This document shows positions 18,913 through 54,437 of a stretch of DNA of 64,000 nucleotides, piece by piece. Each line of letters opens with the position of its first letter. Positions within the stretch are counted from its first letter, which is position 1. The stretch covers positions 22,710,650 to 22,774,649 of the forward strand of contig NC_134026.1 of assembly GCF_964204645.1 (NCBI RefSeq), in the 5' to 3' direction. The notes beneath the pieces were generated by a model. That model was not told where the DNA came from. It was given only the letters and a program-made list of their open reading frames with translations, and ran no database searches. The translations under genes and the position numbers were made by a program. The stretch comes from Tubulanus polymorphus (taxonomy: Eukaryota; Nemertea; Palaeonemertea; Tubulaniformes; Tubulanidae).

Positions 18913-34873
<15,961 letters not shown>

Positions 34874-42400: not shown

Positions 42401-45400
42401 ACCATGAAATTGAATCATCTCTACCTGGTCCCTAATCGACGGGTCCTCAGGCCCAGAAAAACTGAGCGTATGAGCTTGCCAAACGAAGCAGGGTTCATAG
42501 GATCCATTTTTTGTTCATGACAGTGTCGGAGATAATGGTTATATAAGGTGCTCCTCGGCAGGCTCACTCCATCAGCCGTTTCGTAATTTTCAATTAGCCA
42601 CTGAACCTAAGGCAATACACAAAAACAATGATAAACATGACACATATATTAGAAAATAAAGTAGGTAGAAAACATTGACTACCTTTTACCCAACCGACGG
42701 GTCCGTAACCCCATAAACACTGAACGAATCAGCTTTCCGAATGATGCAGCATTCATTGCATCTTGTTTAGTTTCTGCGCAGTGTTGCAGATATAGGTTGT
42801 AAAGAGTACCACGGGGTAAGCTCACACCATCTGTTGCTTCGAAATGCTCAAATAGCCACTGAACCTAACAATCAATATCACAATTGTATATATTCGAAAC
42901 AATTAACCGGCGATGAAGCATTTAAGTCCTCAAGAAGTGTGAGCGATAAGAGAAGGAAATGAATCTGTGATTCATTAGGGGAATCCTATAGTTTGCATGC
43001 TGTAAATGAAAACCAAAGGTAAAGCAACAAAAGAAGACTTCATTACTGGATTTAAAAACATCCTGAAAAAACAGCCAAGCCAGTCTAATCCGTATTTCTC
43101 ATTAGTTGGCAGCAATATGAAATTTATTCAGGATTAGGAGAAGTTCAGATTAAAGAGAGATAAGATGCAGCCAACAAAAACACAAGTCAAGAGCTCAACA
43201 CGGATAAAATTGGATTGACTGTATGAACAACTAAAGCAGGAATGACATGAATATAACAGGTAACCATCATCTGTAGACTTCAGCTGTAAATTAATGATCA
43301 ATGACATATGAGTGAATAGAAACTAAATAAAACAGCCATCATAAAAAGTCATCATATAAATGGATAATTTCAACAAATTCACTGGTCAGTAATCAAAACC
43401 TGCTGCGCATAATGTTAGTTTCTACTGTTAAGTTGCTGAACTGTTAAGTTGCCGATTCATTACCCCAATGTCCAGCTGATAACTGATAATACTTCAGGCA
43501 CTAGTTCCACAATGAAGTCAAATTTAATTGACCTGTGGAACTGGCACCAGGATTTTTCATATCGGGAGTTCATATTTTATAGCGCACAACAAGCTTTGAT
43601 CATTGCTATAATACAGGATTTTGAATAAGCAAACATCTACATATTTCTAAACTCTACGAATACATCTTTATTTGTGCTGCCACTCTTTGCAGGCTACACC
43701 GATCTACCTGGTACCTGGTAGTAGACCCTACTACAGTATTATCGAATGCAGTTTCTTTCAAATGAATATAATTGCATACATACTATTGATGTTAGCATAA
43801 ATGTACCCCGAGACATAAGGTAAAACACTCTTTGTTATCGATCTTTGACAATAGTGAAAGGATTAAAATAGATTAATAAAATTGTATATACAAAAGAAAC
43901 AAATTTACCACATCTGGTCTGATCATGAAATAGGCGTTCACAATATTATTTTCAAAACAGTACTTTTACAAAAACATCAAAGGGAAATGGCTCAATAATG
44001 AAATAACACGACAAAACAGAAAAAATCTGATAATACATATACATAAATACATATTTATAGTTACAATTTTACTTCTTACTTCTGACCTCGACTGAATGAA
44101 ATGAAACTAATAGCTTTTCATTAGGAACTAGACACTGAAATTGCGGTCAATTATTCAATGATAAAACAACCTAGATTGAAAACGTTGGTATCAATAAATG
44201 AATAAAGAACAAGAACAGAACTAATAGTAGGTAAATTGGTAGTGTTAACTAGGAACTAAACGACCACAGCATTGAATTGTTCTAGAAATGAAGATTCTAA
44301 TCCTAATAAAACATATCTCTCTGTGTATAAGGTCTAATAAATGACTGTTGTCTAATAAATCTGCCAACTATTAATGAAAACTTAACTTTTTTTCTTTTTC
44401 TTTTATCACCTTTTATGACAATAACACCAACGAAGTTGAGTATGCTTTCAAAAAACATCTAATATATCTGATAAGACAATTGGATTATTGTCGCAAGGAG
44501 AAACATCAAAATAATCAAACTCAACTGTGATATAAATTTCAAACGAGTCATTAAAAACAGGCAATCACATTCCTTCGAAGCGTCTCTCAAGTCTGACTCA
44601 CTGAACTACCATCATGGGAATTTTGCTGTAATTAACAAGTTTCAGCTTAGACTTTATTCCAGAGTCCATGTTCATAGATTCTACTAGCAAGGTGTCAGTC
44701 TCGCATATAACTGACAGAATACAGACACAGTACAACAAGACGAACAAAGATTACGTCATTGCATTAACAATGGACTCACTAGATAGAAAGAACGGCCAAA
44801 TAAAACTGATTGATATTCAAATCAAACGGTAAGACTGATGTATCCAATAAAATCACCATACGGTATATCCCCATTGATATTGTAGAATTTGCATTTGCCT
44901 GTTTTTAATTGAAAAGCGGGTTTCTTCGAATCTGTCCACACCACACGCGCTGATCGACTGATTGTAGCTCCTATCGACAACTGACTCATCCGCAGAGCAT
45001 GTACCGCCGGGGTGAACAATATACAAACACTAAACAATCACTATATATACCTCTTTTTCGTGGGCCTTCAAATCAACGCGGTTGCTCCACGACGACGGAT
45101 GGTAATTTTGCGCTGGGTCTTCATTACCCGGAGCCTGATCGCTGTATTCCCACTGAAATTATGCAAAGACGAAAAAAACGATGCCAGAATCGCTCGATTC
45201 AACATGTACATACAGGTGCTCGTGATACTTACTGTGGCCGGAGAGGCTCTCGTTGTATGAGTAATTGGGAACCCCTCCCCATCCATAGTTCCCCCTTGTA
45301 GCAGGTACGTGCCCCCGTGTTGAGCCATGAACTGTCGCTGAATGCTCTGCACCTGCAATAAATAGTTTACTCATACTCAGCCGCCAACTCTATCGGTTTT

Positions 45401-53465: not shown

Positions 53466-54437
53466 TCAAGACACATGTGAAGGATAATGTTGTTTTTTCT
53501 CTGCATCATAAGAAACATTTCCAGTTCTCAAAATAAGTTCTTCATCGTTAAACCACATTTGATAATCGAATTCCGGAAAGAAGAAATTGATTTCTTTTTT
53601 AGCTGATTCTGCAGAATCTGTAAATAAAAGAAACATTTTGCTTATATAGCTTATATGTTTACATAGGAATATTAAATGATAACAGGAACATAAGGAACAT
53701 TTAGATACCTGAACCATGGGTTCCATTTCTTGTATCAGTAAGCCCATATAATCCACGTAGTGTGTTTGGCTGTTCATATAATGTCCTGAAAGTTTTCATT
53801 TTTACTAAATTAACTCTCTCACAACCTTTACTCTCATTTAGTGACTTATTTTATTCTGATAAATCTAACCTGAATACTTTTGTTGGCCCCATCAATTTTC
53901 TCCATTCAGCTATAGCATCTTCTCTGGCTAGTATATGAGCATACAGTGGTCCACTGAAATATAAATATTTGTTTCAAATAATTTGACAAGGACCCAACAT
54001 TCTTTATACATCTTGCAGCATAAAAATGTGAAATTCACCTTGACATGTAGAGCACCAGTCTGTTGTGGAAGAACTTCCCTGAAATTAATCAGAAAATGCT
54101 TTTTATATCATAAATAACATTTTTGGACTTTTTTTGCAATAAATGACGTTGGCCTACCAGTATGTTCCTTATAAAATTCAGCAGCTCTCTCTTGACTTAA
54201 TTTCAGAACTTTAGACCGAACAAATAAGAAATTATTCTGTAATATCCGATCATGGATTCCCTGGAATGGATAAGACAAATTAATTAATCAATTGAGAGGT
54301 CTGTTATCTGGGCATTCACAATATTTTTATTTGAATAGTCTTACCTGAATGAGGTGAGGTTGGGCGACTAGATCAGGCTTCAGTAAAGCTAGCGTCAGTT
54401 GCAAGACATTGCGAGTCACCTGACTATTGATTGGCAT
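53466..54437 (-). CDS. NME6: NME6-type nucleoside diphosphate kinase
   Basis: Exons: 54437-54345, 54260-54158, 54078-54039, 53953-53870, 53785-53709, 53617-53466; 182 residues (human about 186-194). Conserved NDPK parts are LTLALLKPDLVAQPH, SKVLKLSQERAAEFYKEH, EWRKLMGPTKVF and TLRGLYGLTDTRNGTHGSDS, the last holding the active-site His and the following Gly-Ser-Asp-Ser. The C-terminal stretch (EINFFFPEFDYQMWFNDEEL) matches NME6, which extends beyond the group I NDPK core. Family: a mitochondrial NDPK in vertebrates, weakly active alone and linked to RCC1L. A splice acceptor at 54449, 12 nt before the ATG, shows an upstream noncoding or alternative exon. The 3' neighbour is the RFX promoter; the 5' side is divergent from the VWA-Cache gene. 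Confidence 0.95.

Follow-up and report, generated by a model that had tools for sequence, protein, structure and literature searches.

The mutually exclusive exons of the Caenorhabditis elegans gene unc-62 encode part of its homeodomain. They are two alternative seventh exons of a gene of the Meis type, and their use is supported by ESTs (PMC3685541). A second system is FOXP1, for which a review describes exons 18 and 18b (16 and 16b in mouse) as mutually exclusive inside the forkhead domain, with a changed specificity of the variant FOXP1-ES (PMC11701043). In the RFX family itself, the isoforms of C. elegans daf-19 arise from alternative promoters and an optional exon, the passages on this gene describing no duplicated DNA-binding exon (PMC3685541), and human RFX2-4 are likewise reported to produce isoforms from one gene (PMC2533330).

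The window analysed here, a 64,000-nt stretch of the Tubulanus polymorphus genome, contains an RFX gene in which the exon for most of the winged helix is present twice. We put at roughly 0.7 the probability that this is a gene of the RFX1/2/3 type in which the winged-helix exon was tandemly duplicated long ago and the copies are now mutually exclusive, giving functionally tuned isoforms. As in unc-62, the pair would be two mutually exclusive internal exons of a transcription factor gene, although unc-62 encodes a homeodomain protein of the TALE class in another phylum; as in daf-19 and human RFX2-4, one RFX gene would give several isoforms. The likeness to FOXP1 extends to the position of the exclusive exons in a winged-helix DNA-binding domain and to the frame being kept by either exon. 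However, FOXP1 belongs to another family, and its swap, as the review presents it, changes critical residues as well as the motif preferred, whereas in the RFX pair the block formed by helix 3 and the first strand of the wing is nearly unchanged and the exon spans most of the domain. A DNA-binding domain with exclusive exons has a precedent in FOXP1. An RFX gene with mutually exclusive DNA-binding exons was not found in the texts accessible in the open-licence literature of PubMed Central, in agreement with an earlier note on this DNA that knew of no such RFX gene. If the reading proposed here is true, the RFX proteins would be the second winged-helix family, after forkhead, with a DNA-binding domain rewritten by splicing, and one RFX gene could yield two different regulators.

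The RFX gene and its exon pair

One RFX gene was modelled from splice signals and reading frame on the minus strand, from ~49.6 to 39.4 kb of the window. Its features are as follows (window positions):

49573-49517, minus strand: candidate first coding exon, which gives 774 codons; chosen to fit the count in the earlier note rather than by homology
48703-48626, minus strand: E1, from splice signals and frame
48371-48254, minus strand: E2, from splice signals and frame
47858-47699, minus strand: E3, from splice signals and frame; one of two possible acceptors chosen
46848-46767, minus strand: E4, from splice signals and frame
45352-45233, minus strand: E5, which precedes the pair and ends in ..RASPAT, phase 0
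45152-45051, minus strand: Ec, candidate in-frame cassette exon of 102 nt (34 codons), proposed from its AG/GT sites and coding-like GC rather than from homology or RNA
42864-42683, minus strand: EA, upstream divergent alternative exon of 182 nt, VQWLF..RRLGK plus 2 nt of an Arg codon
42682-42607, minus strand: intron between EA and EB, 76 nt
42606-42425, minus strand: EB, downstream canonical alternative exon of 182 nt, VQWLI..RRLGT plus 2 nt
41799-41683, minus strand: E7, common exon 3' of the pair, which finishes the domain
41584-41350, 41255-41164, 41075-40924 and 40841-40594, minus strand: E8-E11
40512-40304, 40217-40064 and 39747-39427, minus strand: E12-E14; E8-E14 are the remainder of the gene and hold the BCD dimerisation domain and the stop codon

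With either EA or EB, the product is 748 aa long if translation starts at the first ATG of E1 (one of the two E3 acceptors being used), and 774 codons plus stop once exon 49573-49517 is added. The latter figure, which the earlier note had given for either exon alone, is reproduced but circular: the added exon, one of two candidates, was sought as the 19 codons needed to reach 774. In the 748-aa product with EA, the stretch from residue 350 to 630 matches the Pfam family PF25340 (BCD_RFX) with 393.9 bits, and the B, C and D dimerisation region is thus present. The RFX DNA-binding domain family PF02257 (cut-off 27) scores 107.3 bits with EA and 117.3 bits with EB, each joined to the common next exon, and over the exon EB is identical to human RFX1 (1DP7) at 50 of 61 residues and EA at 43 of 61. 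By both measures the canonical copy is the downstream EB, which reverses an earlier assignment of that role to exon A. Directly 5' of the pair lies the cassette candidate Ec, absent from the earlier note, with a GC content of 0.53 against 0.40 and 0.34 for the introns on either side; the protein is 808 aa long when it is included.

EA and EB each encode the RFX winged helix from residue 2 to residue 62. Each is entered in phase 0 and left with 2 nt, which E7 completes to an Arg codon, and each has its own splice sites (acceptor ..attgattgttag/GTT and donor AAAAG/gtagtc for EA; acceptor ..gtattgccttag/GTT and donor ACCAG/gtagag for EB). The two exons are identical at 126 of 182 nt (69%) and at 45 of 60 residues, contain neither stop nor indel, differ at 16, 7 and 33 first, second and third codon positions, respectively, and were detected as a 190-nt direct repeat with 71% identity. 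These values reproduce the earlier description of two undamaged 182-nt exons, in their coordinates, phases, splice sites and residue identity.

The claim that inclusion of both exons breaks the frame was also borne out: the frame then stops at codon 244, three codons past the junction Arg. When both are skipped, the second codon after ..RASPAT is a stop. As both or neither leads to an early stop, full RFX protein can be made only by inclusion of one of the two. A route to in-frame double inclusion through an alternative donor, GG/GTAAAA, was worked out by hand and rejected, the frame being still broken. Adjacent homologous exons, equal length and phase, separate splice sites and a one-of-two frame rule characterise mutually exclusive pairs; all are found here, and from these features the mutual exclusion of EA and EB is well supported.

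When the 267.8-Mb assembly was searched at the DNA level (very common words skipped), the pair matched itself alone; for this reason, and because the copies share only the above-mentioned 69% of their DNA, an assembly artefact or an allelic duplication was rejected. A search for a third copy in the window by tblastn, with E up to 10, gave E values of 0.13 or more for all hits beyond EA and EB. Among at least 13 RFX-domain matches in the genome, two near-complete neighbouring copies occur at this locus only. A scan of non-animal collections with the EB peptide yielded 89 pattern matches in viral contigs and 593 in genome contigs, none of which is a relative.

Origin of the copies and selection on them

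Over 74 residues, shared exon included, EA and EB are 80% identical to each other. Over the same length, EA and EB are 74% and 84% identical to human RFX1, both 39% to RFX5, 54% and 63% to L005, another RFX gene that we judge to be RFX4/6-like, and 49% and 51% to L001. Since EA reaches at most 54% with the other RFX genes compared, against 80% with EB, the two copies stem from a duplication within this gene. In a tree of six of the eight sequences (two partial ones were dropped), EA and EB form a group (support 0.75) that joins RFX1 (0.89), on branches of 0.21 for EA and 0.05 for EB. The gene is nearer to RFX1 than to the RFX5/7 or RFX4/6 types and is the only one of the RFX1/2/3 type among the genomic matches, at least 13 in number. 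The founding event would have been an ancient tandem duplication of the exon for most of the winged helix, that is, for helices 1-3 together with the first half of the wing.

Two observations concern the other RFX matches of the genome. A second RFX gene (L001, 1084-2877, contig C4) has its DNA-binding and BCD domains in one open frame of 598 aa, and so is apparently intronless there; it may be a retrocopy of old date or else a divergent RFX. Weak RFX-domain matches also occur in open frames of 259-334 aa on contigs C5 (L007, 1450-2286), C9 and C17; these frames look unlike ordinary RFX genes and possibly originate from mobile or viral elements.

Along the exon, EA alone departs from human RFX1 at nine sites (N8H, Y9F, T11A, A12T, S20G, H25L, Q33T, P37A and T61K) and EB alone at two (A40P and M52L), at both of which EA keeps the human residue. 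At four sites EA, EB and human RFX1 all differ, one of them being position 28 (EA Gln, EB Arg, human RFX1 Leu). Relative to the human domain, most departures of EA are found in helix 1-2 and at positions S20 and T61; a hand count gives EA and EB equal net charge. The changes in helix 1, in helix 2 and from T to K listed in the earlier note are thus all present, but in the upstream EA and accompanied by S20G. Within S42-G60 (1DP7 numbering), which we take to span helix 3 and the first strand of the wing, EA and EB differ at position 52 alone. For this block, which was picked after the alignment was seen, the 13 departures of EA from both human RFX1 and EB are all outside (chance 0.0039), and one of all 15 EA/EB differences is inside (chance of at most one, 0.016); 13 of the 15 come before S42.

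The pairwise comparison of EA and EB by the Nei-Gojobori method (NG86) gave a pS of 0.80, at which synonymous sites are saturated and dS is not finite, a pN of 0.16 and a dN of 0.18. Over 1000 bootstraps of the codons, dS had a 2.5% bound of 1.32 and omega a 97.5% bound of 0.156. Because of the saturation, rates on the separate branches are not resolvable; for the same reason, recent gene conversion was rejected. Neutral drift was simulated 2000 times at each of 0.33, 0.66 and 1.3 substitutions per site, with all change placed on one copy. The observed 45 of 60 residues were retained in 0 of 2000 runs at each distance: the best runs kept 44, 28 and 20 residues (means 30.6, 17.5 and 8.2), and 350, 177 and 137 of the 2000, respectively, remained free of stops. 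As neutral copies lose identity and gain stops, both EA and EB must long have been selected as protein. Judged by these pairwise estimates, EA and EB are old copies with long-term purifying selection on both, as expected of mutually exclusive exons.

These data bear on the possibility that EA is a relic, a decaying duplicate that splicing ignores while EB alone is used. Such a relic would be consistent with the larger number of changes relative to human RFX1 in EA (9) than in EB (2); in a relative-rate test this difference (chi-square p 0.035, exact 0.065) is suggestive of faster change in EA. However, EA has retained its splice sites and phases and has neither stop nor frameshift, its changes avoid S42-G60, and both an omega of at most ~0.16 at saturated synonymous sites and the identity kept in none of the simulations speak against decay. 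We give the relic very little credence.

Splice signals around the pair

Donors were scored with a matrix built from 12 donors of this gene (EA, EB and Ec excluded; leave-one-out for the 12). The EA donor scored 0.17, the lowest of 15, and the EB donor 3.39, the third lowest. The pyrimidine fraction at -25..-4 was 0.50 for EA, 0.73 for EB and 0.45 for E5, which was taken as constitutive. With the better acceptor and the better donor, EB looks like the default exon and EA like a helped one: EB would be spliced by default, and EA where a regulator aids its weak sites. The weakest donor of the gene and a pyrimidine tract poorer than that of EB would suit a relic as well, but the value of E5 indicates that a weak tract is not peculiar to EA.

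The firm part of the exclusion is the frame rule, together with the message decay expected from it: transcripts with both exons or with neither would be cleared by nonsense-mediated decay. The 76-nt intron between EA and EB is the shortest of the 15 modelled, seven others measuring 80-98 nt; as introns of the latter size are common in the gene, 76 nt alone is no bar to EA-EB splicing. This leaves room for another role of EA, that of a poison exon, whose joint splicing with EB would introduce the early stop, destroy the message and lower the RFX level. Compatible with such a role are the stop at codon 244, the eight exons that lie 3' of EB, and an intron close in length to the short introns of the gene. 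However, a poison exon requires neither conservation of amino acids nor a matching phase, and EA shows both; we consider this role very improbable, and joint inclusion of EA and EB may be a side effect.

Mutually exclusive splicing can also rest on steric exclusion between the alternative exons, as in alpha-tropomyosin. The pair resembles that type in the short intron between the alternatives and in the closeness of the best branch-site-like word to the donor: the A of CTAAT is 34 nt away from the donor, and no word at 45 nt or more scores above 1.45 (with assumed branch-site weights). Such a branch position is expected by chance about once in four, 501 of 2000 shuffles being equally poor in far branch sites, and the E5-Ec intron is no better. 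In a crude pairing test on 80-nt windows (20, 20 and 10 shuffles), the best intron-intron duplexes, of -27.3, -26.8 and -37.5, were inside the shuffle range (means -30.0, -24.0 with s.d. 2.6, and -40.0), which lends no support to exclusion through RNA pairing. The RBFOX-type word UGCAUG does not occur in 45232-41800, where the shorter GCAUG is present twice. A 19-nt inverted repeat (42237-42255/41990-42008, 95% complementary, 228 nt apart) was observed in the intron after EB; a 278-base query covering this stretch matched itself alone in the genome (common words skipped).

DNA binding by the two isoforms

Recognition by RFX1 is described as centred on the wing (PMC8998557, PMC4333399, PMC2533330): most major-groove contacts are made by the wing and its two strands, and the minor groove is reached by one helix-3 side chain (PMC8998557, PMC4333399). 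Nine residues are reported to contact DNA; Arg is both the first of them, with Lys in its place in RFX5/7, and the third, with Lys in RFX7 (PMC2533330). By alignment these two would be Arg19 and Arg48, both retained in EA and EB. The changes between EA and EB fall in helices 1-2, with in addition T61K in the wing, which adds a charge, and S20G, which adjoins Arg19; the remainder of the wing is encoded by the shared E7.

The earlier note had proposed that splicing switches X-box specificity or affinity. A true switch of sequence preference, of the FOXP1/FOXP1-ES sort and a stronger version of the reading proposed here, has a precedent in the forkhead family as reviewed (PMC11701043), and T61K lies in the wing. 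But the copies hardly differ elsewhere in helix 3 and the first strand of the wing, and both forms share the remaining wing; with Arg19 and Arg48 also kept, the motif is unlikely to change wholesale, and we regard a switch of preference as doubtful. We would rather expect EA and EB to differ in tuned affinity, half-site tolerance, partner choice or dimer behaviour than in a new motif. T61K and S20G could affect affinity, and any change in DNA binding between the two predicted isoforms is hypothetical.

A narrower version of the reading proposed here is that the exons are exclusive for a role other than DNA binding, the helix 1-2 face altering contact with a cofactor or partner, or EA acting as the weaker competitor in heterodimers. 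The position of 13 of the 15 differences before S42, away from the block of helix 3 and the wing, and the encoding of the remaining wing in E7 would fit such a role. Two changes point the other way: T61K, located in the wing, and S20G, whose neighbour Arg19 would be the first of the nine contact residues (PMC2533330). We hold this explanation to be possible, although unlikely.

In the mechanism that we favour, that of functionally tuned exclusive isoforms, both would retain X-box binding, since helix 3 is unchanged, as is the RTRRLG strand, and EA would differ in affinity, partner contacts or half-site tolerance through T61K, S20G and a remodelled helix 1-2 surface (e.g., Gln28). As the dimerisation domain is shared, mixed EA/EB dimers are possible, and the isoforms would form homo- and heterodimers through the common BCD domain. 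A bolder extension, which we offer as improbable, is that mixing of the spliced heads in dimers yields three RFX complexes with different X-box preferences, which serve separate cilia programmes (e.g., motile and sensory, or larval and adult) and have been kept across a lophotrochozoan clade. Batteries of cilia genes are under the control of RFX1/2/3 proteins, and a two-headed gene would allow a direct test of how a single factor can serve several types of ciliated cell: since the isoforms are identical but for one exon, any difference in their targets must stem from the 15 known substitutions.

Other features were observed in the window and elsewhere in the genome. Pieces of ankyrin repeats, at 25328-25600 and 33038-33208 on the minus strand, were found in two of the three stretches tried and belong to a gene adjoining the RFX gene, which by its resemblance is perhaps a TRPN/NOMPC-type channel. 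A weak match to nucleoside diphosphate kinase (25.1 bits, under the family cut-off of 27) lies at 54108-54287, minus strand. A search of the assembly for COX1 gave no match. A lophotrochozoan host is indicated by ten Antp-type homeodomain matches on one strand of contig C6, at 5.32-5.63 Mb (L009-L017 and L019): the ten make up an apparently ordered Hox cluster, and the flanks of three of these homeodomains resemble the lophotrochozoan-type motifs of Lox2, Lox4 and Lox5.
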